From NCBI GenBank assembly GCA_964019415.1, contig CAXHTE010000090.1, positions 1 through 64,000 of the forward strand: DNA of 64,000 nucleotides, in the 5' to 3' direction. Below are positions 12,282-40,984 of the stretch, piece by piece (within the stretch, counting starts at the first letter, position 1; each line of letters starts with the position of its first letter). The notes beneath the pieces are model-generated. The model did not search any database, was not told where the DNA came from, and saw nothing but the letters and a program-made list of their open reading frames with translations. Origin of the DNA: Ianthella basta. Lineage: Eukaryota; Porifera; Demospongiae; Verongiida; Ianthellidae. The position numbers were made by a program, and so were the translations under genes.

Positions 12282-12285
12282 AGGG

Positions 12286-13201: not shown

Positions 13202-13256
13202 GAGGCGCCCATACAGCCAGTGCATTAGTCCAAAGAGAAAGAAGCGCAAGTTGACA

Positions 13257-16200: not shown

Positions 16201-16593
16201 GAGAAGGCCCTGTCCTCGGCAACCACCACCACTGAGGACTCGGCCGGGCCATCCACCAGAGAGCCACCAACTGACAGCGACAGTGACAGTGACAACGAAG
16301 GACCTGATCTAGGAGACATTGTCGCAATCGTGCTGCCAGACTCCACCGCAGTGAAGCCAAAAGTTGACGTGGGCAAAGTCATGCGGATTGACAAAGCCAA
16401 GACGACGCTCAGGTATTTGCCACTCAACCACGTTGGAGGTAACAGATACCACTGCAAACTCGGGGATATACGGAAAGCCACTGTGGATCAGTGGGTATAT
16501 CCCGTAGATTTCCAGTACAAAGCCACAGAGAACACCTATCAACTCCTATCCACCCCAACAGAAATTCACCTACACAAACACCCACTTACATGA
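13257..16593 (+). CDS. Tyrosine recombinase, element A copy 2
   Basis: Exons 13257-13335, 13676-14249, 14409-14647, 14809-15121, 15273-15672, 15802-15993 and 16126-16593, giving 754 aa with no difference from the A1 protein seen. All catalytic residues (R445, K490/K493, R569, H595, Y604) are present and no frame is broken. This is the only window copy of the A gene inside a fully bounded, undiverged element. It is the best candidate for an active A recombinase. Confidence 0.86.
13433..13659 (+). repeat. (CCTA)n microsatellite in A2 intron 1
   Basis: Same length and interruptions as in A1. Identical microsatellite length implies a very recent duplication or an assembly duplication. Confidence 0.9.
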
Positions 16594-17331
16594 CTCTGTT
16601 TAAAATTTGCTATCACCCACTATCAACGACTGTACCTGTTGCATTAGCAATTTGTAATCATGACGGTAAGCATGTGTAGCGATCCATCCACGACACCTAA
16701 CTTCACGATGGCACCCGATTATGCGCAATAGAACGACGGCATAGAATAGAGACTAGGTAGCAAATTTGGGACCTAAATTGTCACTGAGGAGCAGCTGGTC
16801 TAACGCCACACAACACCTAACTACTACACATGTACATAGTCACTACGTGGTGCGTGCTGGGGGAGACTCACCTATGACCGACGCTAAGGCTGTGGCTCTT
16901 TGGCTGCATGTGCACAAGACAACACATATGTAAATGATTTCCGTACAACCAAACCTATCGGGCAAAACGTACTGTAGGCACAAGAGGACTTGATGGTGGG
17001 CCATAAGTGCATTCCTACGCAGATATGCTATGTTTCATAGGGCTAAAGCGCGTCCATGGCGCCTGATTCTGACTATACCCCAACTGCACCTTAGCAGAAA
17101 GGTCTACGGCGAGTCTACAGCGCCGTTTCTAGGGACAGGAGGCCTCCATGGTCATTTCTAGAGAGCTAAGGCTAGCATAGAATGCTTGCTGTGCATACAA
17201 TACGTGGAATTGCAGCATAAAAGGACTGTGGCGAGTCTACAGCGACGTTTCAGGGCACATGAGGCCTCAATGTCTACTACAAGCGAGCTCAGACAAGTCT
17301 ACAACGCACGCCTTCCGCGCTGAAGATAGAA
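16594..17331. other. 3' non-coding end of A2
   Basis: No gene seen. Same subterminal GGCGAGTCTACAGCG repeats as A1 (about 17108 and 17230). Confidence 0.6.
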
Positions 17332-17377
17332 CCCTAACCCTAACCCTAACCCTAACCCTAACCCTATCCCTAACCCT
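17332..17377 (+). repeat. Telomeric CCCTAA tract between A2 and B1
   Basis: About seven CCCTAA units with one CCCTAT variant. It joins the A right end (GATAGAA) to the B left end (GGCCCCCAG). Confidence 0.95.
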
Positions 17378-17588
17378 GGCCCCCAGTAACTTAACCCCTT
17401 GTAACCCTAACCTCACCCCACTTGTTTGCACTTCCCCACACCCCACACCAAAGGGTTACACAAAAGAGCCCTTCACCCTTTGTCACCCCAATGTAACCCT
17501 TTGCAAGCCTTTGTAACCCTTTGTGAAATCTTTGTAACCCTTAGTAAACCCTTTGTGAAACTTTGATAACCCTTTGCTCTGCATCCAG

Positions 17589-18839
17589 GGATGGCATTCT
17601 TCAGGCTGTGAAGCAGCAACAAAGAGCATTCAGTGATGCAGCTGGGAGTAGGAGGAAGGCCATGGAGTCACAGCGATTCCTTCTTCTTCTGTTCTACACT
17701 GCCCTTCCCCCCGGCCGCTCGAAAGAGTTTCAGACCCTGCACTACCGGATCCATGACACCTTGCCCCAACCTGCTGTGGACCCCGCGCAGGCCAACTGCC
17801 TGCACATAACCGATGATGGTAGGCAGGCCTACATCCTGCTAGGCGACTATAAGACCCACAAGTCCTATGGAGATCATTTCCAGCCACTTCGGGAGGGGCA
17901 GCTGCTGCAGCACCTGGCGCTGCACCTAAACACTCACCGACCAGCTTTGGTCGGCCCGGCCAGCACTACGACCCTCTTCCTGGTCAGTACACCCCCACAC
18001 ATACATAGTACACCCCCCACGAACACTTGCATTTAAATTGCCCCTCTTCCTCAGAATGAGAGGGGAGCACCCTATACAGCTGGCAGCTGGACCTCCTACG
18101 TTGAGGGCACCCTGGAGCGCCACACGGGCAGAAGGATAGGGCCCACCATGATCCGATCCATCTTTGTCACCCACTGCGAAAGGGTAGGCCTCTCAGAGGC
18201 AGAAAAGGAAGCAATGGCAGCATCTATGCGCCACAGCAGGAGAGCGGTGAGCGCCCCATGGACCAGGCACCATGGAGAGCACAGCAGATGCATTCACTCA
18301 ATTACCTACATACCTACATATGTGAAGTGACATGTGTCCCACCCCCACCCCTCTCGCAAATGTAGCAGAAGGAGCACTATGATAGAAGGTCACAGGTGGA
18401 CAGGGAGAGCAAGGGGCAAGACTACACTGCCCATCTGTTACAGAAGGCCCTTGCAACAGGGAATGGCCCCAAGGAACCTGAGGTGACCAGGGACCCCTCC
18501 CATCCCGGGCCTTCCCATTTGAATCAGGTGCCCACCAACAATGACAGCGACGCAGATTCAGATGGGCCGAACCTGGGAGATTTGGTGGCCATTGTGCTGC
18601 CAGGGTCAACACCAGTGAATCCAGTGGTTGAGTTAGGGAAGGTCTTGCGGATAAACCAGACCGACCTTAGCTACCTGCCCTTTCAGGATATCGGTGGTAG
18701 CAACTACCGCTGTACAGCAGGTCGGCTTGGGAAAGCGGCGCGAGACCGGATCGTGTTTCCGGTTGGGGTGAACTACAACCCCGACACCAAACTCTACACA
18801 CTGCTATCTGATAACATTGACATCCACAATGCCATCTAA
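17589..18839 (+). pseudogene. Orphan 3' half of the B recombinase gene (B1)
   Basis: Exons 17589-17982, 18055-18246 and 18366-18839 encode the catalytic core (PPGRSKEF, DYKTHK, LRS/IRSIFVTHC, MRHSRRA, KEHYDRR) and the C-terminal domain. The first exon starts at an acceptor (CATCCAG/GG) in phase 2, so it needs an upstream exon. Upstream lies only telomeric DNA and element A2, whose gene is already complete. It is a separated half created by the position of the element end, not a decayed copy: the frame is open throughout. It could be transcribed only by read-through or after circularisation. Confidence 0.8.
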
Positions 18840-18920
18840 CAGTCACCACACACACTTGCAGTACCACCCCCATCTTAAATGCATGTTCAGACGGGCCATG
18901 TAAACCCACATTTTCTTGCT

Positions 18921-18952
18921 GATTGAAGGAATTATTACAAATTCCTTCAATC
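18921..18952. repeat. 12-bp perfect inverted repeat
   Basis: GATTGAAGGAAT / ATTCCTTCAATC around an 8-nt spacer, 80 bp after the recombinase stop. Lost in B3, where the left arm is altered. Confidence 0.7.
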
Positions 18953-19120
18953 ACAATTTATGTAATTTAATTGAACAATATCCAATATCTATGCCCCAAT
19001 AACTGATTATAGATCCCGTTGCCATGGTAACGTGCATCTAAACGATGTTTCTAAACGTCGTAGACACCCCGGGTGTTGTTCCGCGCCGTGGTCTATTTCA
19101 ACTAGCCGTGTTCTAATTCG

Positions 19121-19228
19121 ACGCGCGGCATTCGCGCCTATGCTCTAAATAGCGATTTAGAGCATGGGCGTGGCACGCGCGGCGTTCGCGCCTATGCTCT
19201 AAATAGCGATTTAGAGCATGGGCGTGGC
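19121..19228. repeat. Two 54-bp direct repeats with internal palindrome
   Basis: Each unit contains ATGCTCTAAATAGCGATTTAGAGCAT, nearly self-complementary, with GCGCG flanks. Confidence 0.85.
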
Positions 19229-19670
19229 TTGGGCCCGTGGTCTATAGCAGAGAAACTGCAGCTGCGATAACAATAGTAGCTAATTCCACAACATACGATG
19301 CACAGTTCGCTCGGCTTACTTGTTTCGTCGACAAACAGAGTAACGCAACAATCTGGCATGCAGCGGCCTACGAACCAGAGCCGAGAAAGGAACTGGTTAC
19401 GAGCTGGGGACAGGCTCAGGACACCGCTCTGGGAAACGCTGTGGCTGACGGGGCTGACAGTGAATAAGCTTACGTTTAGCTTACACGCCGCATCCACTGC
19501 CGACCTTTAGAAACGTCTGCTGCGAGATGACAAACCCCATAACCAAACGACGTTTTCTCGGCCATTGTCAGAAATTGCTAACTACTTCCTGAAGACGCGT
19601 GATGACGCAAGTACGAGTAGTTAAACTGATTCGCTGCCGCTCCTTGCCCAATCGTTGGGATCTATAACAC

Positions 19671-19783
19671 TTAAATGCTGACCAATCGGTGTCTCTGAAG
19701 ATTTAGACCACTCGGCACTCGGGCGCTTCGCGCCCTCGTGCCTCGTGCTCTAAATCTCAGAGACACCTCTTGGTCAGCATTTA
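19671..19783. mobile_element. Foldback MITE, 113 bp
   Basis: Long near-perfect arms (TTAAATGCTGACCAA ... TTGGTCAGCATTTAA, then GTGTCTCTGA/TCAGAGACAC) close on a GC-rich hairpin (GGGCGCTTCGCGCCC). No coding potential. Confidence 0.75.
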
Positions 19784-20346
19784 ACTATTACAAAGTAGAA
19801 GACCTAGGTTCACAGCACTACCACGCACGCAAGAGAAGACGCACGCACGGACGTAAAAAAATTAAACACGCACACAGACCGCACATACAAGCTGTTATTC
19901 AGGCTACAATCGTGCATCACAGACTTAATTACAAAAATAATTGCAAAAACTACCATGAACTGTCGAGGGAGGAAAGAAACAGTTTAAAAATGGTATTAAA
20001 GGTAAAAGAAAAAGAACATAATAGAAAAAATCCATCACTAACCTGATCTTGCTGCCCTAGCACATGTTGTGGCCCAGAGTCCATCCCTCAGGGCGGCCAT
20101 TTGCAAACATGTGCTTCTTAGTAAAATCATATTCATAGCATTGGACGGCCATTTTTTGGGGTACGTGGTCATCGAATGACCTCAGAATATAATTAGGGTG
20201 TAGAATTAATCATTCTAGTGCATTAAATTTCATAATTAAACACGAATTTTAAAATGCATTCTAACAATATTAATTATAATCATTATTTTAGGGTGTAGGA
20301 GGAATAAAATAAATGCATATACATGACCGCATGTGTACACAATTTA
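19784..20346. other. B1 intergenic stretch without a supported gene
   Basis: AT-rich DNA. A 102-codon lysine/arginine-rich plus-strand ORF overlaps it, but it begins inside the MITE and resembles nothing I know, so I do not call it. Confidence 0.5.
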
Positions 20347-20523
20347 TACCGAGATGAACCCGGAAGAGAATCACCTTAATCCTCCCAAGGGGGTGATAAG
20401 GTGGCGGGTGTGTGTTCACCACGCAAGATGAGGAGTGCCATCATGGGAGAACGGGTCCAAGCATCATCTTTACACTCCCTTGGCGAGGATTAAGGTGATT
20501 CCTTTCGGGACCCATCTCAGTGT
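20347..20523. mobile_element. MITE with GAATCACCTTAATCCTC inverted termini
   Basis: Arms of about 35 bp (GAGATG...CCCG...GAATCACCTTAATCCTC and complement). A related copy in the other half of B lies at 25265-25440 and others in B3, so it is a repeated family. Confidence 0.7.
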
Positions 20524-20833
20524 AATCAGCTGCAGGCAGGAATGGCCCTGCCAAATCAGTGCTACTTCATTCCTCATGTGCCCGTCATGCGCGGATGGAT
20601 CCATCTGTGCATTATGGATGCATGCCCAGCATGATCGCACATGGGCGGATGCGATGGGATGCATCCACAATGAGTTTGGTACATGCCCACAAGCATGCTC
20701 CATGCATTAAGGTCAATGCATGAGAATGCACATGAGCATGCCATGCAAGTAAGAGTAATGTACATGGGCATGTCTGATTGTACATGCATGCATACCCTTC
20801 TCCTCAGCTCATGTCATGACAGTGCGCATGACC

Positions 20834-22618
20834 CCCGTGCATCTTGGCATGTCCACACGATGGATCATGCCGCGTGTACATTGAGATGGGAGCGCTGTAA
20901 GCAGGTGTTGGGGAAAATGCCATTAAAAAAAGTAAAGTCCAGACCGCCTCTCTCTCTCTCTCATCATGCATGGACGGATGCATAGATGGATCCATCCATG
21001 CATGATGGATGGATGGATGGATCCTGACATGGTACATTGATGCATTCCCCATGCGATTTGTACGGGACCATGTGCATGCTGTATGCATTGACATCCATGC
21101 ACACACCGCGCCATCCATCCATGTACAATGTCATGGGATGCTGCGGCTTGTACAATGCTGGCACCCCCAGGCCCCGCCCCCGTGCACCTTGGCATGTCCA
21201 CACGATGGATCATGCCGCGTGTACATTGAGATGGGAGCGCTGTAAGCAGGTGTTGGGGAAAATGCCATTAAAAAAAGTAAAGTCCAGACCGCCTCTCTCT
21301 CTCTCTCATCATGCATGGACGGATGCATAGATGGATCCATCCATGCATGATGGATGGATGGATGGATCCTGACATGGTACATTGATGCATTCCCCATGCG
21401 ATTTGTACGGGACCATGTGCATGCTGTATGCATTGACATCCATGCACACACCGCGCCATCCATCCATGTACAATGTCATGGGATGCTGCGGCTTGTACAA
21501 TGCTGGCACCCCCAGGCCCCGCCCCCGTGCACCTTGGCATGTCCACACGATGGATCATGCCGCGTGTACATTGAGATGGGAGCGCTGTAAGCAGGTGTTG
21601 GGGAAAATGCCATTAAAAAAAGTAAAGTCCAGACCGCCTCTCTCTCTCTCTCATCATGCATGGACGGATGCATAGATGGATCCATCCATGCATGATGGAT
21701 GGATGGATGGATCCTGACATGGTACATTGATGCATTCCCCATGCGATTTGTACGGGACCATGTGCATGCTGTATGCATTGACATCCATGCACACACCGCG
21801 CCATCCATCCATGTACAATGTCATGGGATGCTGCGGCTTGTACAATGCTGGCACCCCCAGGCCCCGCCCCCGTGCACCTTGGCATGTCCACACGATGGAT
21901 CATGCCGCGTGTACATTGAGATGGGAGCGCTGTAAGCAGGTGTTGGGGAAAATGCCATTAAAAAAAGTAAAGTCCAGACCGCCTCTCTCTCTCTCTCATC
22001 ATGCATGGACGGATGCATAGATGGATCCATCCATGCATGATGGATGGATGGATGGATCCTGACATGGTACATTGATGCATTCCCCATGCGATTTGTACGG
22101 GACCATGTGCATGCTGTATGCATTGACATCCATGCACACACCGCGCCATCCATCCATGTACAATGTCATGGGATGCTGCGGCTTGTACAATGCTGGCACC
22201 CCCAGGCCCCGCCCCCGTGCACCTTGGCATGTCCACACGATGGATCATGCCGCGTGTACATTGAGATGGGAGCGCTGTAAGCAGGTGTTGGGGAAAATGC
22301 CATTAAAAAAAGTAAAGTCCAGACCGCCTCTCTCTCTCTCTCATCATGCATGGACGGATGCATAGATGGATCCATCCATGCATGATGGATGGATGGATGG
22401 ATCCTGACATGGTACATTGATGCATTCCCCATGCGATTTGTACGGGACCATGTGCATGCTGTATGCATTGACATCCATGCACACACCGCGCCATCCATCC
22501 ATGTACAATGTCATGGGATGCTGCGGCTTGTACAATGCTGGCACCCCCAGGCCCCGCCCCCGTGCACCTTGGCATGTCCACACGATGGATCATGCCGCGT
22601 GTACATTGAGATGGGAGC
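20834..22618. repeat. 345-bp satellite array
   Basis: Five complete units plus a partial one, period exactly 345 bp. Units are rich in CATGCATCCATGGATGG palindromes and a (CT)n run. Open frames on both strands recur with the repeat and are not genes. Absent from B3. Confidence 0.95.
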
Positions 22619-23007
22619 TTATCCATGCGCACACCGTGCCATCCGTCCATGTACATAATGATAATTAATAGATGCAATAAAATCATTTCATATAAGAATA
22701 AAATGAAATCATAAAATCATATGCATGTATGTACAGTTGATGAAAGTCTGTCAGAGGGCGATCCACCCATTCAGGCCTTGGCGTGTCCCACCAGGAAGAC
22801 CAGTTTGTTGGAATACTGTGGGAGAGAAGGGGGAGAGGAAGGAGACAGGGGGTATATGGTGAAAGACAGCACCATGTGAATCCAATGTATTACAACATAT
22901 AACAATCACCACCATTCCTACATAGAGACAGCACTACCATGCTGTCTATACAAAAAGCATAACTCCATGTACGTGAAAAGATCACAGCACATATGCACAT
23001 AATCCAT

Positions 23008-23009
<2 letters not shown>

Positions 23010-23059
<50 letters not shown>
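23010..23059. repeat. (CA)n microsatellite
   Basis: Perfect CA run 60 bp before the hammerhead. Confidence 0.95.
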
Positions 23060-23120
23060 CCACACAAATGCATCAGACAGGTACAAGCACAATCGTCATG
23101 CACAAATACGGCATCAATTG

Positions 23121-23195
23121 CAGGGAACTGCAGACTATGGCACGAGTATGCCATAGTTTCGACCTGTTTGGGTCTCATCAGTGCAGCGTACCCTG
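23121..23195 (-). ncRNA. Hammerhead ribozyme, minus strand (B1, first)
   Basis: On the minus strand: outer stem I CAGGG/CCCTG, inner stem I CTGCA/TGCAG, CTGATGA, stem II GACC/GGTC with a CAAACA loop, GAAAC, stem III CTATGGCA/TGCCATAG, GTC cleavage site. Stem II differs from the A family (GCCC/GGGC) with pairing kept. Confidence 0.88.
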
Positions 23196-23250
23196 ACATT
23201 CCTACACACACAATCACACCCACAATCACACCCACACCCACACAAGCATA

Positions 23251-23440
23251 CTGTATACGCTTTAACGTTCGCGGGGTTAAACTTTCGTGGTTCGCGAGTT
23301 TTCACGTTTTTCGTGTTTTTACTTCCGCGGTTGCAGAGTCTCCAACAGGAGAAATAAAGCCTTGTGTAAGTTTTCGCGGGGTGAAACTTTCGCGGATGGT
23401 TGCTGATCCGCGAAAACCGCGAAAGTTAAAGCGTATACAG
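23251..23440. mobile_element. TA-flanked MITE with CGCGAAA repeats
   Basis: Terminal inverted repeats CTGTATACGCTTTAAC flanked by TA on both sides fit a Tc1/mariner-type target duplication. The interior repeats TTCGCGG/CCGCGAA in both orientations. Confidence 0.75.
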
Positions 23441-23570
23441 TACAATACATACATACATACATACATGTATACATCACGTGTAAGCAGGAACTGACAGCAA
23501 TAGGTACAGCACTACAGAACATTTAACCAAGAATTCCATGGTGATATATACATCACTATTGTCTGCCCTC

Positions 23571-23999
23571 AGGTACGACGGCGAGAACATTGGGCGATAT
23601 CTAAACCAGGGCGGCCTGCGGCAAGCCCTCTCCCTAATGGTTCGCCTTTGCCGGCAGCCAGGGCCTTTTCAATTCTCCCTAATTGAAGACAAGGCGCAGG
23701 CCCACTGCAACACACGCTTTTCATATCACAAACACGCTGGTGCAGTGGTCATCGCTGAGGAAAGAATAGAGCTACGGGAAGAGCCAGTCGAGCTGCTGGT
23801 GAACTACGGCATTGAAGATTACTGGCTGGGGTTCTTCGGGAGGCACGCCCTGGACTGGGGACTTGAGCACCCAATGGTGCGCTCAGTCCTGTGGTGTGCC
23901 TCCTCACCGCACAGTTCACTGGATGACCATTTGAAACAAGTCGTTTTGAGAGCCCTGCCACAAGGAGTGACTGTACCCCCAAACAATACCCCACCATAA
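23571..23999 (+). CDS. SET-domain-like exon (fragment or cargo gene), B1
   Basis: Open from a splice-acceptor-like CTGCCCTCAG at 23570 to a stop at 23997-23999, about 142 codons. The C-terminal part (NTRFSYHKHAGAVVIA ... ELLVNYG.EDYW) resembles the end of a SET methyltransferase domain: an N-x-x-F motif, a hydrophobic strand, an acidic residue pair and the final Y-G. No upstream exon with the N-terminal SET strands was identified with confidence, so this may be a captured 3' exon rather than a working enzyme. AATAAA lies about 150 bp after the stop. Absent from B3 and A. The family call is tentative. Confidence 0.45.
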   Translation, partial: RYDGENIGRYLNQGGLRQALSLMVRLCRQPGPFQFSLIEDKAQAHCNTRFSYHKHAGAVVIAEERIELREEPVELLVNYGIEDYWLGFFGRHALDWGLEHPMVRSVLWCASSPHSSLDDHLKQVVLRALPQGVTVPPNNTPP

Positions 24000-24150
24000 G
24001 GGAACACTTACACATACACACATACACACTTGAGCGATTGCACACATTGAAAGCCGTAAGGCCATGCAAACTTGATTCACTGTTTATCAAGTACTGTAAA
24101 AGTGAATACTGAAAGTTGGAGAGGTTGGGTATAAATGCATGCGGGCAGGG

Positions 24151-24156
24151 ACAATA
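24151..24156 (+). terminator. Polyadenylation signal AATAAA
   Basis: GACAATAAACCGG, about 150 bp after the SET-like stop codon. Confidence 0.4.
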
Positions 24157-24199
24157 AACCGGGAATCGAATTTGTCTGGCCTAACTTAGGGTTAAACAA

Positions 24200-24236
24200 C
24201 AACGCTATCAAACTAGCGGCTAGTTTGACAGCGTTG
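24200..24236. repeat. 18-bp perfect inverted repeat
   Basis: CAACGCTATCAAACTAGC and its complement, separated by one base. A cruciform-capable palindrome. Confidence 0.85.
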
Positions 24237-24299
24237 TGGCTTTGTTGAAAACGTCGGGGCCGAAAATATCATAGACCAGTGAAAGAAAAAGGTAATTCA

Positions 24300-25044
24300 A
24301 CTTATCTTGGCAAGGGATCCCTTTTTAGTGTGTCCAGGTTGCCACCGTCGACGCCATTCCCCGGCAGGCCTCCAATTCTTCTGTTTACGCCGCCATATTT
24401 CCAGACACGTGCACGCGTATGAATCGCGTGACAATTATCGAACGTACTTCCTATAATTATAGCCCCTCCGCTAGGGACACATTGAGGACTGCAGCAGACG
24501 CTGTGCACGCACTGAACAGCTGCAATCTTGTATGTGCAATCCATGACATGCATGCACAGCAGAGATGTAAAAATGAAATGCATTTGCACATTTTTTCTGG
24601 AGTCATTTTATGCAATTTTGCAAGGGCCCTATTAACCTGCATGTGGGACGTGCACCTCCCCGAATGGAGCATGCTGCAGCCCCAACTCTCAAATGCAGCA
24701 TGGTACCACTACATTGTGCGCCAGTGCATGCATGCTGCAGTGAATGGTCTGCAAACCTGCAGTTGAAGCTTGTGGGCGGAGTCCTCTTAAGTACAGCAGC
24801 ATAGCAGTTTGGCTGAGGAGTGCCGCATGATGCTGGTTTTGTATGCCTGCCTTGAGCATGCAATTTCAAGTGTACCATGCAATTTTGGCCTATTCAGATC
24901 CCATTTTGCTCTGTCACTTTTGAAGGCCCAAAAGTGCACCTTATGTATACAAGGATAGGGGCTGCTGTAAGCAGAACCTGGCATGTATAGGCATTTATAT
25001 TATTCCTCCGACAGGCAAAATCACGTGACCATTACGTAATATTT
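24300..25044. other. B1 non-coding stretch with a single foldback arm
   Basis: No supported gene. 24833-24985 is similar to one arm of the foldback element at 43091-43429 (AAGTGTACCATGCAA..TTGGCCTATTCAGATCC). Confidence 0.6.
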
Positions 25045-25105
25045 GTCTGACCATGGATAATATATTCATAGGGGGAGGGTATGAATACATTATCCATGGT
25101 CAGAC
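25045..25105. repeat. 26-bp inverted repeat
   Basis: GTCTGACCATGGATAATATATTCAT and near-complement around a GGGGGAGGG spacer. Confidence 0.8.
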
Positions 25106-25264
25106 AGCCATACCAACTATATTGGCGCAAGTCAGTGGTATGGCAGGTCTTGTGCCTTAAAACCCCACCACCCCCTCACTCCTCATGCATCCATCATGCC
25201 CAGATGGATCCATCTGCGCGTGACGGGTACATGAGAAGTGAGGGGGCACTGATTTGGCAGGGCC

Positions 25265-25440
25265 GCTGAGATGGGTCCCGAAAGGAATCACCTTAATCCT
25301 CGCCAAGGGAGTGAAAAGATAATGCTTGGACCCGTTCTCCAATGATGGCACTCCTCATCTTGCGTGGTGAACGCACACCCACCACCTTATCACTCCTTTG
25401 GAGAGGGTTAAGGTGATTCTCTTCAGGGCCCATCTTGGTG
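25265..25440. mobile_element. MITE, GAATCACCTTAATCCTC family, second copy
   Basis: Same family as 20347-20523 with diverged arms. Confidence 0.7.
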
Positions 25441-25727
25441 TAATTGCATACGCACACATGGGGACAATCTCCTTAAAAATGCGCCACCCCCCTTACTCCT
25501 CATGCAGCCATCATGCCCAGAGGAATCCCTCTGGGCATGATGAGTTATGGGTATAATAACAAGAAAATTAATATAAAATAATTCAATATACTGTAAATAA
25601 TATTCAATACACTGTAAATTACTGCATAATTATAGGAAAAAGCAGGTTAAGGTTACTGTCTTTGGTGAACATCTTGCATCCTGCATGAGGAGAACGGAGA
25701 CTGCTGAGACATGCACACACTCACATG

Positions 25728-25728
25728 T

Positions 25729-25820
<92 letters not shown>

Positions 25821-25962
25821 CCACACAAATGCATCAGACAGGCACAAGCACAATCGTCATGCACAAATACGGCATCAATTGCAGGGAACTGCAGACTATG
25901 GCACGAGTATGCCATAGTTTCGACCTGTTTGGGTCTCATCAGTGCAGTGTACCCTGACTTTC

Positions 25963-26024
<62 letters not shown>

Positions 26025-26041
26025 GTCCTTTCAATGGATGT

Positions 26042-26100
<59 letters not shown>

Positions 26101-26116
26101 TGTGTGTGTGTGTGTG
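25728..26116. repeat. (CA)n / hammerhead / (CA)n / (TG)n block
   Basis: CA runs at about 25730-25818 and 25965-26021 flank a ribozyme, followed by a TG run at 26043-26116. Confidence 0.9.
25882..25956 (-). ncRNA. Hammerhead ribozyme, minus strand (B1, second)
   Basis: Same core as 23121-23195 with one substitution (TGCAGTG for TGCAGCG) outside the catalytic core. Confidence 0.88.
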
Positions 26117-26300
26117 AAAATGAACGTGTACATAATATTGCCACCAACACCGCCCCCACAATCCATTTACACACAGATTACACACCTTCTAGTGATTACC
26201 ACCCTACCTATATGTCGACACTTTCCCTAACCTTATATGGTGCCTGTGGATAGGGCACACATTTGCAGGCACAGACATCAAAGGCTAGCATGGCATGCAG

Positions 26301-26340
26301 GGGCCATCTTGTGGGAGGGGCAAGGGCCCAGCTATAAAAG
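26301..26340 (+). promoter_or_regulatory. Core promoter of the B recombinase gene (B1)
   Basis: GGGGCCATCTTGTGGGAGGGG is followed by TATAAAAG at 26333-26340, 62 bp before the start codon at 26395. The upstream block is shared with element A. Confidence 0.75.
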
Positions 26341-26394
26341 GGGCTGCAAGTGGAGGTGCTACATCCATGTCTAAGACCCAGGACAAAGGCAACC

Positions 26395-29259
26395 ATGTCC
26401 AACGCCCAGTCTCCAGAGGAAATGATGCAGCTGGTGTTGAGGGCTGCTTTTGCTTTAGCCACCAGGGCACAGGGAGGTCCTCCTGACAGTCTGCAGAGCA
26501 AGGATGCAGTTGAACCACCAACACCAGAGCCAGTTATTCCACCAAGACAGGATCCAGTTAACCCACCAACACTGGATCCAATTAGCCCACCAAGAAAGGA
26601 TCCAATTAGCCCACCAAGACAGGATCCAGTTAACCCACCAACACTGGATCCAGTTAACCCACCAACACTGGATCCAGTTAACCCACCAAGGAAGGATCCA
26701 ATTAGCCCAGCAAGACAGGATCCAGTTAACCTACCAACACAGGATCCAGTTAACCCACCAACACAGGATTCAGTTGGCCCACCAACACCGGAGCCGGTTA
26801 TCCCAGCAAGACAGGGTCCAGTTAACCCACCAACACTGGATCCAGTTAGCCCAGCAAGACAGGGTCCAGTTAACCCACCAACACTGGATCCAGTTAACCC
26901 ACCAACACTGGATCCAGTTAGCCCACCAACACTGGACCCAGTTAGCCCACCAAGACAGGATCCAGTTAGCCCAGCAAGACAGGACCCAGTTAACCCACCG
27001 AGACTGGATCCAGTTAGCCCACCAACACACTCGCCCTCTCCCCCCTGCCCCTCCTCAGACAGTGATGACGACGACTATGAGCCAGTACCTAAGATGCCGC
27101 GGCGAGACAAGGGAGGGCGGGCAAGGAACTACCTGAACGTCCATCAGTACCCAGCCCTAGAGAGTCGGATGGAGCAGATGAGAAGCTTCTACGTGGATCC
27201 TGTCAGTCTGCGGAGGGAGGGCGATGCCATCAGTCTCGTGACATGGAACAAGGTCTCCCTCCACATTCTGTGTGAGTCACCTCCATATGGGGAGAGGGTG
27301 TGGCTGCAATGATTTTCATTTGTCAGTAATTATACTTGACTCTTAATTAACAATGCCTTGCCATGGAGTTGTTGTAATGGGAATCATGACTGTCAGATAG
27401 AACTTAGGTGGGTGCTCACTGATGCCCATCTGCCTGTCCACCTCCAGTGTTCCTGGCCTATGTTAAAGACACCCTGGGCAAGACACCAACACTAGACTGT
27501 CTGAGGAGTGAAGAGATGATCCAACAGTTTGTCCAGTCTCTAGTGAAGAAAGGGATACTAGGCAGCACCATAGCCCAGTACGTGGACCACCTCCAATACG
27601 GCCTACGCTACCTCTACTGCAAAGATCACATTAAGAACTACAAGCAGGAGGAACTTTACATCACTCTGGCCAGGCTGCGGGAAAAGTTCCGCAAGCAAAC
27701 TGCGCATTCGACAGCTCAGCAGAGCTGGCAAGCTCTGGAGGCAAAGAACAAGTGGATCGAATGGTGAGTAACTGTCAACGTTTCACTCCCTAACCCTGGC
27801 CCCCAGTAACTTAACCCCTTGTAACCCTAACCTCACCCCACTTGTTTGCACTTCCCCACACCCCACACCAAAGGGTTACACAAAAGAGCCCTTCACCCTT
27901 TGTCACCCCAATGTAACCCTTTGCAAGCCTTTGTAACCCTTTGTGAAATCTTTGTAACCCTTAGTAAACCCTTTGTGAAACTTTGATAACCCTTTGCTCT
28001 GCATCCAGGGATGGCATTCTTCAGGCTGTGAAGCAGCAACAAAGAGCATTCAGTGATGCAGCTGGGAGTAGGAGGAAGGCCATGGAGTCACAGCGATTCC
28101 TTCTTCTTCTGTTCTACACTGCCCTTCCCCCCGGCCGCTCGAAAGAGTTTCAGACCCTGCACTACCGGATCCATGACACCTTGCCCCAACCTGCTGTGGA
28201 CCCCGCGCAGGCCAACTGCCTGCACATAACCGATGATGGTAGGCAGGCCTACATCCTGCTAGGCGACTATAAGACCCACAAGTCCTATGGAGATCATTTC
28301 CAGCCACTTCGGGAGGGGCAGCTGCTGCAGCACCTGGCGCTGCACCTAAACACTCACCGACCAGCTTTGGTCGGCCCGGCCAGCACTACGACCCTCTTCC
28401 TGGTCAGTACACCCCCACACATACATAGTACACCCCCCACGAACACTTGCATTTAAATTGCCCCTCTTCCTCAGAATGAGAGGGGAGCACCCTATACAGC
28501 TGGCAGCTGGACCTCCTACGTTGAGGGCACCCTGGAGCGCCACACGGGCAGAAGGATAGGGCCCACCATGATCCGATCCATCTTTGTCACCCACTGCGAA
28601 AGGGTAGGCCTCTCAGAGGCAGAAAAGGAAGCAATGGCAGCATCTATGCGCCACAGCAGGAGAGCGGTGAGCGCCCCATGGACCAGGCACCATGGAGAGC
28701 ACAGCAGATGCATTCACTCAATTACCTACATACCTACATATGTGAAGTGACATGTGTCCCACCCCCACCCCTCTCGCAAATGTAGCAGAAGGAGCACTAT
28801 GATAGAAGGTCACAGGTGGACAGGGAGAGCAAGGGGCAAGACTACACTGCCCATCTGTTACAGAAGGCCCTTGCAACAGGGAATGGCCCCAAGGAACCTG
28901 AGGTGACCAGGGACCCCTCCCATCCCGGGCCTTCCCATTTGAATCAGGTGCCCACCAACAATGACAGCGACGCAGATTCAGATGGGCCGAACCTGGGAGA
29001 TTTGGTGGCCATTGTGCTGCCAGGGTCAACACCAGTGAATCCAGTGGTTGAGTTAGGGAAGGTCTTGCGGATAAACCAGACCGACCTTAGCTACCTGCCC
29101 TTTCAGGATATCGGTGGTAGCAACTACCGCTGTACAGCAGGTCGGCTTGGGAAAGCGGCGCGAGACCGGATCGTGTTTCCGGTTGGGGTGAACTACAACC
29201 CCGACACCAAACTCTACACACTGCTATCTGATAACATTGACATCCACAATGCCATCTAA
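26395..29259 (+). CDS. Tyrosine recombinase reconstituted across the B1/B2 junction
   Basis: Exons 26395-27271 and 27448-27763 lie at the right end of B1. Exons 28009-28402, 28475-28666 and 28786-29259 lie at the left end of B2. Joined by GT-AG splicing they give 750 aa in frame. The intron 27764-28008 contains the B1/B2 junction. The start fits a CAACCATGT context 62 bp after the TATA box. Domains: N-terminal helix (LVLRAAFALA), a PPTLDPVN linker of about 24-bp units to residue 215, SSDSDDDDY near 219, a basic patch, SAM-like to 397, R441, K486/K489, R563, H589, Y598, and a C-terminal LGDLVAIVLP domain. All exons after the first have A counterparts. Whether this tandem gene is expressed is not shown. 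Confidence 0.82.
26512..27030 (+). repeat. 24-bp coding minisatellite (PPTLDPVN) in exon 1
   Basis: Units such as GATCCAGTTAACCCACCAAC keep frame. Order and number differ strongly in B3 (45815-46540). Confidence 0.9.
27788..27797 (+). other. B1/B2 junction within intron, candidate recombination core
   Basis: CCCTAACCCT alone separates the B right end (GTTTCACT) from the B left end (GGCCCCCAG). As for A, one telomeric unit is shared. It lies inside the intron of the recombinase gene. Confidence 0.6.
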
Positions 29260-29540
29260 CAGTCACCACACACACTTGCAGTACCACCCCCATCTTAAAT
29301 GCATGTTCAGACGGGCCATGTAAACCCACATTTTCTTGCTGATTGAAGGAATTATTACAAATTCCTTCAATCACAATTTATGTAATTTAATTGAACAATA
29401 TCCAATATCTATGCCCCAATAACTGATTATAGATCCCGTTGCCATGGTAACGTGCATCTAAACGATGTTTCTAAACGTCGTAGACACCCCGGGTGTTGTT
29501 CCGCGCCGTGGTCTATTTCAACTAGCCGTGTTCTAATTCG

Positions 29541-29648
29541 ACGCGCGGCATTCGCGCCTATGCTCTAAATAGCGATTTAGAGCATGGGCGTGGCACGCGC
29601 GGCGTTCGCGCCTATGCTCTAAATAGCGATTTAGAGCATGGGCGTGGC
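29541..29648. repeat. Two 54-bp direct repeats (B2)
   Basis: Counterpart of 19121-19228. Confidence 0.85.
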
Positions 29649-30090
29649 TTGGGCCCGTGGTCTATAGCAGAGAAACTGCAGCTGCGATAACAATAGTAGC
29701 TAATTCCACAACATACGATGCACAGTTCGCTCGGCTTACTTGTTTCGTCGACAAACAGAGTAACGCAACAATCTGGCATGCAGCGGCCTACGAACCAGAG
29801 CCGAGAAAGGAACTGGTTACGAGCTGGGGACAGGCTCAGGACACCGCTCTGGGAAACGCTGTGGCTGACGGGGCTGACAGTGAATAAGCTTACGTTTAGC
29901 TTACACGCCGCATCCACTGCCGACCTTTAGAAACGTCTGCTGCGAGATGACAAACCCCATAACCAAACGACGTTTTCTCGGCCATTGTCAGAAATTGCTA
30001 ACTACTTCCTGAAGACGCGTGATGACGCAAGTACGAGTAGTTAAACTGATTCGCTGCCGCTCCTTGCCCAATCGTTGGGATCTATAACAC

Positions 30091-30203
30091 TTAAATGCTG
30101 ACCAATCGGTGTCTCTGAAGATTTAGACCACTCGGCACTCGGGCGCTTCGCGCCCTCGTGCCTCGTGCTCTAAATCTCAGAGACACCTCTTGGTCAGCAT
30201 TTA
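30091..30203. mobile_element. Foldback MITE (B2)
   Basis: Counterpart of 19671-19783. Confidence 0.75.
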
Positions 30204-30766
30204 ACTATTACAAAGTAGAAGACCTAGGTTCACAGCACTACCACGCACGCAAGAGAAGACGCACGCACGGACGTAAAAAAATTAAACACGCACACAGACC
30301 GCACATACAAGCTGTTATTCAGGCTACAATCGTGCATCACAGACTTAATTACAAAAATAATTGCAAAAACTACCATGAACTGTCGAGGGAGGAAAGAAAC
30401 AGTTTAAAAATGGTATTAAAGGTAAAAGAAAAAGAACATAATAGAAAAAATCCATCACTAACCTGATCTTGCTGCCCTAGCACATGTTGTGGCCCAGAGT
30501 CCATCCCTCAGGGCGGCCATTTGCAAACATGTGCTTCTTAGTAAAATCATATTCATAGCATTGGACGGCCATTTTTTGGGGTACGTGGTCATCGAATGAC
30601 CTCAGAATATAATTAGGGTGTAGAATTAATCATTCTAGTGCATTAAATTTCATAATTAAACACGAATTTTAAAATGCATTCTAACAATATTAATTATAAT
30701 CATTATTTTAGGGTGTAGGAGGAATAAAATAAATGCATATACATGACCGCATGTGTACACAATTTA

Positions 30767-30943
30767 TACCGAGATGAACCCGGAAGAGAATCACCTTAAT
30801 CCTCCCAAGGGGGTGATAAGGTGGCGGGTGTGTGTTCACCACGCAAGATGAGGAGTGCCATCATGGGAGAACGGGTCCAAGCATCATCTTTACACTCCCT
30901 TGGCGAGGATTAAGGTGATTCCTTTCGGGACCCATCTCAGTGT
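30767..30943. mobile_element. MITE, GAATCACCTTAATCCTC family (B2)
   Basis: Counterpart of 20347-20523. Confidence 0.7.
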
Positions 30944-31253
30944 AATCAGCTGCAGGCAGGAATGGCCCTGCCAAATCAGTGCTACTTCATTCCTCATGTG
31001 CCCGTCATGCGCGGATGGATCCATCTGTGCATTATGGATGCATGCCCAGCATGATCGCACATGGGCGGATGCGATGGGATGCATCCACAATGAGTTTGGT
31101 ACATGCCCACAAGCATGCTCCATGCATTAAGGTCAATGCATGAGAATGCACATGAGCATGCCATGCAAGTAAGAGTAATGTACATGGGCATGTCTGATTG
31201 TACATGCATGCATACCCTTCTCCTCAGCTCATGTCATGACAGTGCGCATGACC

Positions 31254-33038
31254 CCCGTGCATCTTGGCATGTCCACACGATGGATCATGCCGCGTGTACA
31301 TTGAGATGGGAGCGCTGTAAGCAGGTGTTGGGGAAAATGCCATTAAAAAAAGTAAAGTCCAGACCGCCTCTCTCTCTCTCTCATCATGCATGGACGGATG
31401 CATAGATGGATCCATCCATGCATGATGGATGGATGGATGGATCCTGACATGGTACATTGATGCATTCCCCATGCGATTTGTACGGGACCATGTGCATGCT
31501 GTATGCATTGACATCCATGCACACACCGCGCCATCCATCCATGTACAATGTCATGGGATGCTGCGGCTTGTACAATGCTGGCACCCCCAGGCCCCGCCCC
31601 CGTGCACCTTGGCATGTCCACACGATGGATCATGCCGCGTGTACATTGAGATGGGAGCGCTGTAAGCAGGTGTTGGGGAAAATGCCATTAAAAAAAGTAA
31701 AGTCCAGACCGCCTCTCTCTCTCTCTCATCATGCATGGACGGATGCATAGATGGATCCATCCATGCATGATGGATGGATGGATGGATCCTGACATGGTAC
31801 ATTGATGCATTCCCCATGCGATTTGTACGGGACCATGTGCATGCTGTATGCATTGACATCCATGCACACACCGCGCCATCCATCCATGTACAATGTCATG
31901 GGATGCTGCGGCTTGTACAATGCTGGCACCCCCAGGCCCCGCCCCCGTGCACCTTGGCATGTCCACACGATGGATCATGCCGCGTGTACATTGAGATGGG
32001 AGCGCTGTAAGCAGGTGTTGGGGAAAATGCCATTAAAAAAAGTAAAGTCCAGACCGCCTCTCTCTCTCTCTCATCATGCATGGACGGATGCATAGATGGA
32101 TCCATCCATGCATGATGGATGGATGGATGGATCCTGACATGGTACATTGATGCATTCCCCATGCGATTTGTACGGGACCATGTGCATGCTGTATGCATTG
32201 ACATCCATGCACACACCGCGCCATCCATCCATGTACAATGTCATGGGATGCTGCGGCTTGTACAATGCTGGCACCCCCAGGCCCCGCCCCCGTGCACCTT
32301 GGCATGTCCACACGATGGATCATGCCGCGTGTACATTGAGATGGGAGCGCTGTAAGCAGGTGTTGGGGAAAATGCCATTAAAAAAAGTAAAGTCCAGACC
32401 GCCTCTCTCTCTCTCTCATCATGCATGGACGGATGCATAGATGGATCCATCCATGCATGATGGATGGATGGATGGATCCTGACATGGTACATTGATGCAT
32501 TCCCCATGCGATTTGTACGGGACCATGTGCATGCTGTATGCATTGACATCCATGCACACACCGCGCCATCCATCCATGTACAATGTCATGGGATGCTGCG
32601 GCTTGTACAATGCTGGCACCCCCAGGCCCCGCCCCCGTGCACCTTGGCATGTCCACACGATGGATCATGCCGCGTGTACATTGAGATGGGAGCGCTGTAA
32701 GCAGGTGTTGGGGAAAATGCCATTAAAAAAAGTAAAGTCCAGACCGCCTCTCTCTCTCTCTCATCATGCATGGACGGATGCATAGATGGATCCATCCATG
32801 CATGATGGATGGATGGATGGATCCTGACATGGTACATTGATGCATTCCCCATGCGATTTGTACGGGACCATGTGCATGCTGTATGCATTGACATCCATGC
32901 ACACACCGCGCCATCCATCCATGTACAATGTCATGGGATGCTGCGGCTTGTACAATGCTGGCACCCCCAGGCCCCGCCCCCGTGCACCTTGGCATGTCCA
33001 CACGATGGATCATGCCGCGTGTACATTGAGATGGGAGC
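31254..33038. repeat. 345-bp satellite array (B2)
   Basis: Same unit count and boundaries as in B1. Confidence 0.95.
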
Positions 33039-33427
33039 TTATCCATGCGCACACCGTGCCATCCGTCCATGTACATAATGATAATTAATAGATGCAATAA
33101 AATCATTTCATATAAGAATAAAATGAAATCATAAAATCATATGCATGTATGTACAGTTGATGAAAGTCTGTCAGAGGGCGATCCACCCATTCAGGCCTTG
33201 GCGTGTCCCACCAGGAAGACCAGTTTGTTGGAATACTGTGGGAGAGAAGGGGGAGAGGAAGGAGACAGGGGGTATATGGTGAAAGACAGCACCATGTGAA
33301 TCCAATGTATTACAACATATAACAATCACCACCATTCCTACATAGAGACAGCACTACCATGCTGTCTATACAAAAAGCATAACTCCATGTACGTGAAAAG
33401 ATCACAGCACATATGCACATAATCCAT

Positions 33428-33479
<52 letters not shown>

Positions 33480-33540
33480 CCACACAAATGCATCAGACAG
33501 GTACAAGCACAATCGTCATGCACAAATACGGCATCAATTG

Positions 33541-33615
33541 CAGGGAACTGCAGACTATGGCACGAGTATGCCATAGTTTCGACCTGTTTGGGTCTCATCA
33601 GTGCAGCGTACCCTG
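33541..33615 (-). ncRNA. Hammerhead ribozyme, minus strand (B2, first)
   Basis: Counterpart of 23121-23195, core intact. Confidence 0.88.
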
Positions 33616-33670
33616 ACATTCCTACACACACAATCACACCCACAATCACACCCACACCCACACAAGCATA

Positions 33671-33860
33671 CTGTATACGCTTTAACGTTCGCGGGGTTAA
33701 ACTTTCGTGGTTCGCGAGTTTTCACGTTTTTCGTGTTTTTACTTCCGCGGTTGCAGAGTCTCCAACAGGAGAAATAAAGCCTTGTGTAAGTTTTCGCGGG
33801 GTGAAACTTTCGCGGATGGTTGCTGATCCGCGAAAACCGCGAAAGTTAAAGCGTATACAG
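33671..33860. mobile_element. TA-flanked CGCGAAA MITE (B2)
   Basis: Counterpart of 23251-23440. Confidence 0.75.
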
Positions 33861-33990
33861 TACAATACATACATACATACATACATGTATACATCACGTG
33901 TAAGCAGGAACTGACAGCAATAGGTACAGCACTACAGAACATTTAACCAAGAATTCCATGGTGATATATACATCACTATTGTCTGCCCTC

Positions 33991-34419
33991 AGGTACGACG
34001 GCGAGAACATTGGGCGATATCTAAACCAGGGCGGCCTGCGGCAAGCCCTCTCCCTAATGGTTCGCCTTTGCCGGCAGCCAGGGCCTTTTCAATTCTCCCT
34101 AATTGAAGACAAGGCGCAGGCCCACTGCAACACACGCTTTTCATATCACAAACACGCTGGTGCAGTGGTCATCGCTGAGGAAAGAATAGAGCTACGGGAA
34201 GAGCCAGTCGAGCTGCTGGTGAACTACGGCATTGAAGATTACTGGCTGGGGTTCTTCGGGAGGCACGCCCTGGACTGGGGACTTGAGCACCCAATGGTGC
34301 GCTCAGTCCTGTGGTGTGCCTCCTCACCGCACAGTTCACTGGATGACCATTTGAAACAAGTCGTTTTGAGAGCCCTGCCACAAGGAGTGACTGTACCCCC
34401 AAACAATACCCCACCATAA
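33991..34419 (+). CDS. SET-domain-like exon (B2)
   Basis: Same reading frame and acceptor-like start as 23571-23999, with no difference seen. The same caution applies: only the C-terminal SET-like part is recognisable. Confidence 0.42.
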   Translation, partial: RYDGENIGRYLNQGGLRQALSLMVRLCRQPGPFQFSLIEDKAQAHCNTRFSYHKHAGAVVIAEERIELREEPVELLVNYGIEDYWLGFFGRHALDWGLEHPMVRSVLWCASSPHSSLDDHLKQVVLRALPQGVTVPPNNTPP

Positions 34420-34619
34420 GGGAACACTTACACATACACACATACACACTTGAGCGATTGCACACATTGAAAGCCGTAAGGCCATGCAAACTTGATTCAC
34501 TGTTTATCAAGTACTGTAAAAGTGAATACTGAAAGTTGGAGAGGTTGGGTATAAATGCATGCGGGCAGGGACAATAAACCGGGAATCGAATTTGTCTGGC
34601 CTAACTTAGGGTTAAACAA

Positions 34620-34656
34620 CAACGCTATCAAACTAGCGGCTAGTTTGACAGCGTTG
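34620..34656. repeat. 18-bp perfect inverted repeat (B2)
   Basis: Counterpart of 24200-24236. Confidence 0.85.
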
Positions 34657-35464
34657 TGGCTTTGTTGAAAACGTCGGGGCCGAAAATATCATAGACCAGT
34701 GAAAGAAAAAGGTAATTCAACTTATCTTGGCAAGGGATCCCTTTTTAGTGTGTCCAGGTTGCCACCGTCGACGCCATTCCCCGGCAGGCCTCCAATTCTT
34801 CTGTTTACGCCGCCATATTTCCAGACACGTGCACGCGTATGAATCGCGTGACAATTATCGAACGTACTTCCTATAATTATAGCCCCTCCGCTAGGGACAC
34901 ATTGAGGACTGCAGCAGACGCTGTGCACGCACTGAACAGCTGCAATCTTGTATGTGCAATCCATGACATGCATGCACAGCAGAGATGTAAAAATGAAATG
35001 CATTTGCACATTTTTTCTGGAGTCATTTTATGCAATTTTGCAAGGGCCCTATTAACCTGCATGTGGGACGTGCACCTCCCCGAATGGAGCATGCTGCAGC
35101 CCCAACTCTCAAATGCAGCATGGTACCACTACATTGTGCGCCAGTGCATGCATGCTGCAGTGAATGGTCTGCAAACCTGCAGTTGAAGCTTGTGGGCGGA
35201 GTCCTCTTAAGTACAGCAGCATAGCAGTTTGGCTGAGGAGTGCCGCATGATGCTGGTTTTGTATGCCTGCCTTGAGCATGCAATTTCAAGTGTACCATGC
35301 AATTTTGGCCTATTCAGATCCCATTTTGCTCTGTCACTTTTGAAGGCCCAAAAGTGCACCTTATGTATACAAGGATAGGGGCTGCTGTAAGCAGAACCTG
35401 GCATGTATAGGCATTTATATTATTCCTCCGACAGGCAAAATCACGTGACCATTACGTAATATTT

Positions 35465-35525
35465 GTCTGACCATGGATAATATATTCATAGGGGGAGGGT
35501 ATGAATACATTATCCATGGTCAGAC
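35465..35525. repeat. 26-bp inverted repeat (B2)
   Basis: Counterpart of 25045-25105. Confidence 0.8.
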
Positions 35526-35684
35526 AGCCATACCAACTATATTGGCGCAAGTCAGTGGTATGGCAGGTCTTGTGCCTTAAAACCCCACCACCCCCTCACT
35601 CCTCATGCATCCATCATGCCCAGATGGATCCATCTGCGCGTGACGGGTACATGAGAAGTGAGGGGGCACTGATTTGGCAGGGCC

Positions 35685-35860
35685 GCTGAGATGGGTCCCG
35701 AAAGGAATCACCTTAATCCTCGCCAAGGGAGTGAAAAGATAATGCTTGGACCCGTTCTCCAATGATGGCACTCCTCATCTTGCGTGGTGAACGCACACCC
35801 ACCACCTTATCACTCCTTTGGAGAGGGTTAAGGTGATTCTCTTCAGGGCCCATCTTGGTG
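35685..35860. mobile_element. MITE, GAATCACCTTAATCCTC family, second copy (B2)
   Basis: Counterpart of 25265-25440. Confidence 0.7.
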
Positions 35861-36148
35861 TAATTGCATACGCACACATGGGGACAATCTCCTTAAAAAT
35901 GCGCCACCCCCCTTACTCCTCATGCAGCCATCATGCCCAGAGGAATCCCTCTGGGCATGATGAGTTATGGGTATAATAACAAGAAAATTAATATAAAATA
36001 ATTCAATATACTGTAAATAATATTCAATACACTGTAAATTACTGCATAATTATAGGAAAAAGCAGGTTAAGGTTACTGTCTTTGGTGAACATCTTGCATC
36101 CTGCATGAGGAGAACGGAGACTGCTGAGACATGCACACACTCACATGT

Positions 36149-36240
<92 letters not shown>

Positions 36241-36301
36241 CCACACAAATGCATCAGACAGGCACAAGCACAATCGTCATGCACAAATACGGCATCAATT
36301 G

Positions 36302-36376
36302 CAGGGAACTGCAGACTATGGCACGAGTATGCCATAGTTTCGACCTGTTTGGGTCTCATCAGTGCAGTGTACCCTG
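36302..36376 (-). ncRNA. Hammerhead ribozyme, minus strand (B2, second)
   Basis: Counterpart of 25882-25956, flanked by (CA)n on both sides. Confidence 0.88.
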
Positions 36377-36382
36377 ACTTTC

Positions 36383-36444
<62 letters not shown>

Positions 36445-36461
36445 GTCCTTTCAATGGATGT

Positions 36462-36520
<59 letters not shown>

Positions 36521-36720
36521 TGTGTGTGTGTGTGTGAAAATGAACGTGTACATAATATTGCCACCAACACCGCCCCCACAATCCATTTACACACAGATTA
36601 CACACCTTCTAGTGATTACCACCCTACCTATATGTCGACACTTTCCCTAACCTTATATGGTGCCTGTGGATAGGGCACACATTTGCAGGCACAGACATCA
36701 AAGGCTAGCATGGCATGCAG

Positions 36721-36760
36721 GGGCCATCTTGTGGGAGGGGCAAGGGCCCAGCTATAAAAG
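36721..36760 (+). promoter_or_regulatory. Core promoter of the B2/B3 recombinase gene
   Basis: Same CCATCTTG block and TATAAAAG (36753-36760), 62 bp before the start at 36815. Confidence 0.75.
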
Positions 36761-36814
36761 GGGCTGCAAGTGGAGGTGCTACATCCATGTCTAAGACCCA
36801 GGACAAAGGCAACC

Positions 36815-40540: not shown

Positions 40541-40689
40541 CAGTCACCACACACACTTGCAGTACCACCCCCATCTTAAATGCATGTTCAGACGGCCATG
40601 TAAACTCTCATTTTATTGCTGATTGCTGATATTATTACAAATTCCTTCAATCACAATTTATGTAATTTAATTGAACAATATCCAATATC

Positions 40690-40970: not shown

Positions 40971-40984
40971 CAATATCCAATATC

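Follow-up and report, generated by a model that had tools for sequence, protein, structure and literature searches.

A 64,000-nucleotide stretch of the Ianthella basta genome (contig CAXHTE010000090.1, positions 1 to 64,000; hereafter the window) carries three copies of an element, B, both of whose ends lie within one intron of its own recombinase-like gene. Each copy starts with exons 3–5 of this gene and stops 24 bp past the splice donor of exon 2. The window is part of contig C85 of a eukaryotic assembly of 209,087,449 bases in 96 contigs, and the host genome, at 209 Mb with introns and cadherins (150 domains scored of 580 candidates in the cadherin search), is not archaeal. Several of the cadherin domains lie in very long open frames, a sign of an animal or a close relative of animals; light-harvesting proteins were searched for, with none found. 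The B copies and the telomeric tracts around them are:

17378..27787 (+): B copy 1, subtype B1, 10,410 bp; exons 3–5 at the left end and exons 1–2 at the right; flanked by a CCCTAA tract (left) and B copy 2 (right)
27798..38207 (+): B copy 2, a 100% identical repeat with copy 1; CCCTAA tract at the right end
39087..47298 (+): B copy 3, subtype B2, 8,212 bp; single insertion lying between CCCTAA tracts, with one half of the gene at each end
17332..17377 (+): CCCTAA-type tract separating family A from B copy 1
38208..38237 (+): tract of five CCCTAA units that follows B copy 2
39046..39081 (+): tract of six CCCTAA units that precedes B copy 3
47299..47334 (+): tract of six CCCTAA units that separates B copy 3 from an A-type left end

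Copies 1 and 2 lie within a direct repeat of 10,431 bp that has no mismatches (100% identity) when the window is compared with itself. Copy 3 represents a diverged subtype; its left end aligns to copy 1 from 39087, and its first base can also be placed at 39082, as the preceding telomeric unit ends at 39081. The original prediction had the left ends at 17378, 27798 and 39086 start with the 3' exons of a recombinase; the first two are confirmed, and the third position falls within the 39082–39087 range for copy 3. Where copies 1 and 2 meet, the gene is laid out as follows:

26333–26339, upstream of B exon 1: TATA-like box visible in the sequence
26395..27271 (+): exon 1; 24-bp repeats code for a proline-rich N-terminal region
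27448..27763 (+): exon 2; N-terminal part; read unspliced, it runs into W-stop (IEW-stop) straight after the donor
27764..28008 (+): split intron, 245 bp, holding the B–B junction
27764..27787 (+): B right terminus, 24 bp past the donor
27788..27793 (+): CCCTAA, the single shared core and one telomeric unit, at the junction
27798..28008 (+): B left terminus with AACCYTT repeats, in the intron between core and exon 3
28009..28402 (+): exon 3; within the catalytic part, encodes the first Arg and the Lys box
28475..28666 (+): exon 4; encodes the second Arg and the His box
28786..29259 (+): exon 5; encodes the Tyr box HYDRR and the C-terminal region and closes with the stop codon (29257–29259)

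The donor at 27763/27764 and the acceptor at 28008/28009 enclose the junction, whose sequence at 27784–27804 reads CACT, CCCTAA and CCCTGGCCCCC in that order. In our gene model the five exons from 26395 to 29259 join into one open, in-phase chain predicted to encode a protein of 750 residues. The window has one B–B junction and the sole complete B gene spans it, which bears out the earlier claim that a complete gene exists only across such a junction; in copy 3, exon 1 contains stops unless a further intron is assumed.

We queried the genome with exon 2 together with the B right end, scoring 40 of 75 candidates, and with exon 3, scoring 40 of 43, and classed the flanks at these 80 places (40 right ends and 40 left ends); because only these of the first-look candidates were scored, the counts of B ends are lower bounds. 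A search with the left-end sequence scored 40 of 42 candidates. A standard terminus at CCCTAA was found at 38 of the 40 right ends, so that the predicted distance of 24 bp from splice donor to right end (donor 27763/27764 and end 27787 in the window) holds genome-wide, and at 37 of the 40 left ends. Thirteen right ends run directly into a B left end, ten lead through a CCCTAA tract to the left end of a related family, A, 13 lead through two or more CCCTAA units to something else (including locus L036, where a 14-unit tract also leads to an A end) and two through one CCCTAA to something else; the exceptions are a copy on contig C13 with CCCTGA instead of the core and a truncated copy on C19. 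Left ends follow a CCCTAA tract in 22 cases and a B right end in 15, leaving three without the standard sequence (L076–L078), for each of which exon 2 was sought in the stretch read and not found. By eye, all 40 left-end matches adjoin an exon-3 match. In none of the scored copies do exons 2 and 3 occur together without an intervening core, and an uninterrupted B gene with ends elsewhere, named in the original prediction as its counterexample, was sought at the 40 right and 40 left ends and did not turn up.

For pairing, four decayed or partial matches on C2 and C11 were removed from the 40 left-end matches, and a right end was sought within 18 kb of each of the 36 that were left. Paired elements were found for 33 of them, 16 as single insertions and 17 in head-to-tail arrays, one of whose pairings (15.8 kb) probably skips an unlisted junction. 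In the survey of single insertions suggested beforehand, all 16 have the gene halves at opposite ends, 7.5–16 kb apart, where a few long ones may hold nested insertions. Fifteen of these singles have standard ends on both sides, and in the remaining one the right end is truncated. Almost all scored B copies have their boundary at the same place in the intron, with a single CCCTAA common to element and target. An assembly artefact is ruled out by the many B copies across several chromosome contigs and unplaced contigs, and the 16 single insertions rule out that the B boundaries are merely a way of reading one tandem repeat.

With respect to chromosome position, a hand count placed 16 of the 40 right ends within 60 kb of the tip of a chromosome contig whose length is known; in 15 of these the gene reads inward, the exception being the decayed C13 copy. 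The other 24 right ends are on unplaced contigs, further in, or on C23, a contig without a length figure. In favour of a telomeric setting, contig C2 has telomere repeats at both ends, with some variant units at the far one, and the left end of an A element stands 751 bp from the start of this contig.

All 13 B–B junctions found from right ends hold exactly one CCCTAA, as expected from either a circle junction or recombination at one core; tracts toward other elements hold 1 to 14. The CCCTAA core fits B1, B2 and family A. The split intron is 245 or 246 bp long in all 15 head-to-tail loci examined, and at 11 of 13 fully covered junctions exons 2–5 are open to the expected stop with splice signals and phase kept. 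The two others are L066, which is frame-shifted in exon 3, and L063, whose exon 3 could not be followed; two more junctions (L003 and L042) are only partly covered. The termini do lie in an intron, as the original prediction had it, and a tandem rebuilds the gene on paper, in the open 750-residue chain and in the 11 open junctions. Locus L003 (C67:1376–4767) is an apparent recombinant, in which A-gene sequence is continued by the final 74 bp of exon 2 of B and then by the B–B junction.

Comparison of the two subtypes in the window gave 4 synonymous and 1 nonsynonymous differences across the 185 codons of the 5' half; for the 3' half, with 353 codons, the figures were 12 and 6. Overall, 7 of 23 differences are nonsynonymous and 16 synonymous, against a neutral nonsynonymous share of about 0.76 for the sites of exons 2–5 (p=4e-6, one-sided). 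The fetched copies, excluding gapped, short or <97% identical matches, have 24 synonymous and 20 nonsynonymous variants, for a pN/pS of 0.26 (p=9e-6); the two tests are not independent because this count takes in the B1/B2 differences. These substitution patterns show constraint across B copies and indicate that the function of the split gene has been kept.

Related genes that are not split occur in other families, two of which are present in the window:

1-8440 (+): partial family A copy, identical to and head-to-tail with the next, with one CCCTAA between
8441..17331 (+): family A element, 8,891 bp including one core; undivided related gene within it, modelled from an internal exon onward
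56847..64000 (+): family C element, followed without reaching its right end; undivided related gene within it, interrupted by a frame break near 59480

The A gene lies about 0.7 kb from the right end of A and shares the exon layout of the B gene, with 57% protein identity over the compared part. The frame break in the C gene sits near a run of A and may be natural or a sequencing error. Family D (locus L086 on contig C47, C47:50001–54000), whose gene is represented by colinear tblastn pieces only, is likewise unsplit and has the opposite orientation to the adjacent B on C47. A protein search with exon 3 of C returned 117 matches, which a hand count divided into 2 C-type, 10 D-type and 36 B-type, the remainder being mostly A-type. 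In A, C and D an intron is found at the matching protein position, and the telomeric tract is absent from it. Judged from these alignments, the intron used by B is older than the split, because A, C and D keep an unsplit gene with the matching intron; by parsimony the split would be the derived state.

The left ends of A (8442–8587) and C (56848–56993) are 98% identical over 146 bp, with little else matching at the DNA level, which suggests that terminal modules can pass between families; such exchange may have been the route by which the end of B entered the intron. The motif AACCYTT, which was picked after viewing, has 5, 5, 5 and 4 occurrences in the leftmost 250 bp of A, B1, B2 and C, respectively, as against 2, 0, 1 and 2 in the rest of each (Fisher p 2e-5 to 8e-9), amounting to two independent cases of enrichment because A/C and B1/B2 share left ends. 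In B this array sits within the split intron. Tandem formation is not peculiar to the split family, as A also forms head-to-tail arrays, both in the window and with regular spacing on C74 (near 8.9–9.0 kb) and C23.

The proteins of A, B and D share the motif order RxKE, KTxK, [TS]xxR, M[RK]H[ST]R and YDRR, where the joint before the Tyr box of D was made by hand; C was compared only in pieces, without its Tyr box. Taking these to be the R, K, R, H and Y boxes, they follow the order R-K-(H/x)xxR-H-Y of the tyrosine recombinase catalytic residues. Against E. coli XerC, XerD, FimB and FimE, hhalign gave a colinear alignment over about 240 columns with an E-value of 0.0044, or 0.00045 under other settings, and a score of 35.3, compared with a maximum of 21.3 among 100 column-shuffled controls and 17.8 for a reversed control. 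Because the R/K/R/H/Y motifs are conserved and are joined by a weak profile-profile comparison, membership of the tyrosine recombinases is likely, though not proven. A search of viral contigs for relatives gave 131 pattern matches, of which none was confirmed.

We consider it probable that B is a Crypton-like transposon of telomeric repeats whose own recombinase gene holds the attachment site in an intron. We infer a cycle in which B would exit as a circle whose junction, made of the right end, CCCTAA and the left end, forms the intron, and splicing of the circle or of a head-to-tail pair would yield the full enzyme. This enzyme would then recombine the CCCTAA core with a telomeric CCCTAA unit in a Campbell-type integration, which would part exons 1–2 (N-terminal part, preceded by the TATA-like box) from exons 3–5 (all the catalytic motifs). 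A single copy would be silent, unable to make the enzyme because the insertion separates the two sets of exons, and its remobilisation would require a tandem neighbour, a circle, a related enzyme (from A or D) or telomere recombination. With the site in an intron, the protein would be free of site sequence and tolerant of changes in it. On the further idea that the intron acts as a sensor of DNA topology, permitting the enzyme only when the ends are joined in a circle or tandem array and turning it off when B is inserted alone, we would put the chances at about even.

Several results weigh against the Crypton-like reading of B. Three positions ahead of the second Arg stands Thr or Ser, where tyrosine recombinases usually have His. 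No significant match was obtained in Pfam, NCBIfam, PHROGs or PDB sequences, the best family-model scores being an E-value of 0.16 for Phage_int_SAM_5, reached by one of two A1 members, and 0.059 for an unrelated model; the B protein hit no Pfam family, and thus not the Crypton-type domain DUF3504, which we take to be in Pfam. The hhalign probability was low, at 7.9% in the run with E 0.0044 and 33% in that with E 0.00045, and the AlphaFold model was poor (pLDDT 46). Exon 2 alone has 3 synonymous versus 4 nonsynonymous variants in the fetched copies, one of them a stop, which makes selection on the 5' half the weaker case, based on few sites. Only two of the seven contig tips read are telomere repeats, both on C2, while those of C7, C11, C20, C13 and C19 are something else and C7, C11 and C20 begin inside elements. 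Family A forms tandem arrays though no gene needs restoring there, and the first escape of a single copy is left unexplained by B alone. For the self-limiting switch of the original prediction, which would hold down copy number, a complication is that the unsplit genes of A and D lie in the same arrays and could act in trans.

Those unsplit genes are also a reason to consider B a passenger, mobilised in trans by enzymes from A or D, or else by telomere recombination, its split gene unneeded and the position of its ends in the intron a frozen accident. The CCCTAA core and the AACCYTT left-end repeats are indeed common to A and B, and L066 and L063 are not open among the 13 fully covered B–B junctions. 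We nevertheless regard this as unlikely, given that B1 and B2, which already share the split, differ mostly by synonymous changes in both gene halves, that the other 11 junctions are open, and that the 36 B-type exon-3 matches of the hand count are without stops, as compared with at least two decayed B-like matches that have them.

The arrays bear on a different possibility, that the intronic CCCTAA is merely recombinogenic, with tandems made by homologous recombination or rolling replication and the true ends of B elsewhere. Amplification would give near-constant units such as those on C67, five of which measure 7,937–7,943 bp (two others 7,557 and 8,134 bp), and on C47, with four of 7,872–7,974 bp; within the window, telomeric tracts are also found in the terminal regions of elements. 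The survey has largely refuted this explanation, which we now hold to be very improbable: the two standard ends of 15 of the 16 singles do not fit it, no (CCCTAA)x2 tract lies inside any B copy of the window, and other ends were seen in no scored B copy aside from decayed ones (C13, C19 and L076–L078). In addition, B1 and B2 have both terminal regions and a few internal stretches in common, whereas the rest of their sequence differs. That the splitting is itself the function, with exons 1–2 making a short N-terminal protein, possibly a repressor, and exons 3–5 a catalytic fragment, seems hardly credible. Unspliced exon 2 does meet its stop directly after the donor, and the split divides the N-terminal part from the part with all catalytic motifs, but 11 of 13 junctions preserve the phase and both splice signals (27763 and 28009 in the window), which speaks against it.

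Taken as a transposon of telomeric repeats with an intronic attachment site, B shares features with several known systems. Chromosome-end arrays of mobile elements are formed by the telomeric retrotransposons HeT-A/TART, MoTeR and FoTeR, and the HeT-A promoter makes expression depend on a head-to-tail neighbour; these are retroelements, whereas in B the coding sequence itself is divided. In bacterial insertion-sequence circles, joining of the ends assembles a junction promoter from which the mobility gene is expressed, so that expression needs joined ends as proposed for B, with a promoter in one case and an intron in the other. Cryptons are eukaryotic DNA elements with only a recombinase, the fungal ones having 4- or 6-bp direct repeats at their ends, no long terminal repeats and a circle as proposed intermediate (PMC3212892, in excerpt). 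B has a comparable short direct repeat, the 6-bp CCCTAA on both sides, unlike animal Cryptons, for which the excerpted text of the same paper gives no terminal repeats as found. B further differs from Cryptons in having no family-model match, a telomere target, a gene split by the ends and 7.5–16 kb between them.

In layout, B looks like a eukaryotic counterpart of the self-disrupting or ‘suicidal’ integrases, which are called exclusively archaeal in the portion of PMC8371274 drawn on here. According to that portion, the SSV-type, pTN3 and pT26-2 integrases have the attachment site inside the integrase gene, as B does, and integration divides the N-terminal from the catalytic C-terminal part in a similar way; in their circular form the gene is complete, and excision could be rescued by related enzymes from elsewhere. 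The analogy to SSV drawn in the original prediction is therefore apt, with a site inside the gene and halves at opposite ends after integration. The archaeal site forms part of the translated protein sequence, and for the pT26-2 group the named targets are tRNA genes (PMC8371274, same portion); the B site is instead in a spliceosomal intron, matches the telomeric repeat and belongs to a eukaryotic host. A provirus of Ectocarpus with a tyrosine recombinase has minimal att homology and a CC dinucleotide target, according to part of PMC13236599, and the word ‘split’ does not occur in the main text of that paper. In the open-licence PMC literature we found no report of telomere-inserting tyrosine-recombinase elements and none of self-splitting integrases in eukaryotes.

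If the intron does sense topology, B would be without precedent both as a self-splitting integrase beyond the archaea and as one that relies on splicing, as far as the open-licence PMC literature and the cited portion of PMC8371274 extend. B shows a eukaryotic lineage arriving at the archaeal layout by a different route, with the attachment site hosted in an intron, and the unsplit sister families in the same genome serve as controls; how self-splitting elements persist becomes a testable question. The case also suggests that some subtelomeres are built by recombinase-driven insertion into telomere repeats, beyond retroelements alone, which would bear on telomere maintenance and the evolution of chromosome ends.

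The interior of B1 has only three open reading frames of at least 120 aa, the longest of 153 aa, although genes in small exons could be missed. These frames do not support a DIRS-type retroelement, with a reverse transcriptase beside the recombinase. The 153-aa frame (33958–34419), the one of the three compared with Pfam, had no significant match there, and an impression that it is SET-like lacks support in Pfam. Both B1 copies also contain a 345-bp unit repeated 5.2 times in nearly identical form, at 20832–22618 and 31252–33038. Between B copies 2 and 3, the gap at 38208–39081 spans about 850 bp, with many degenerate CCCTAA and GAGGGACA repeats; its two edges recur beside B on C67 (L011 and L041), and it is probably another short element.

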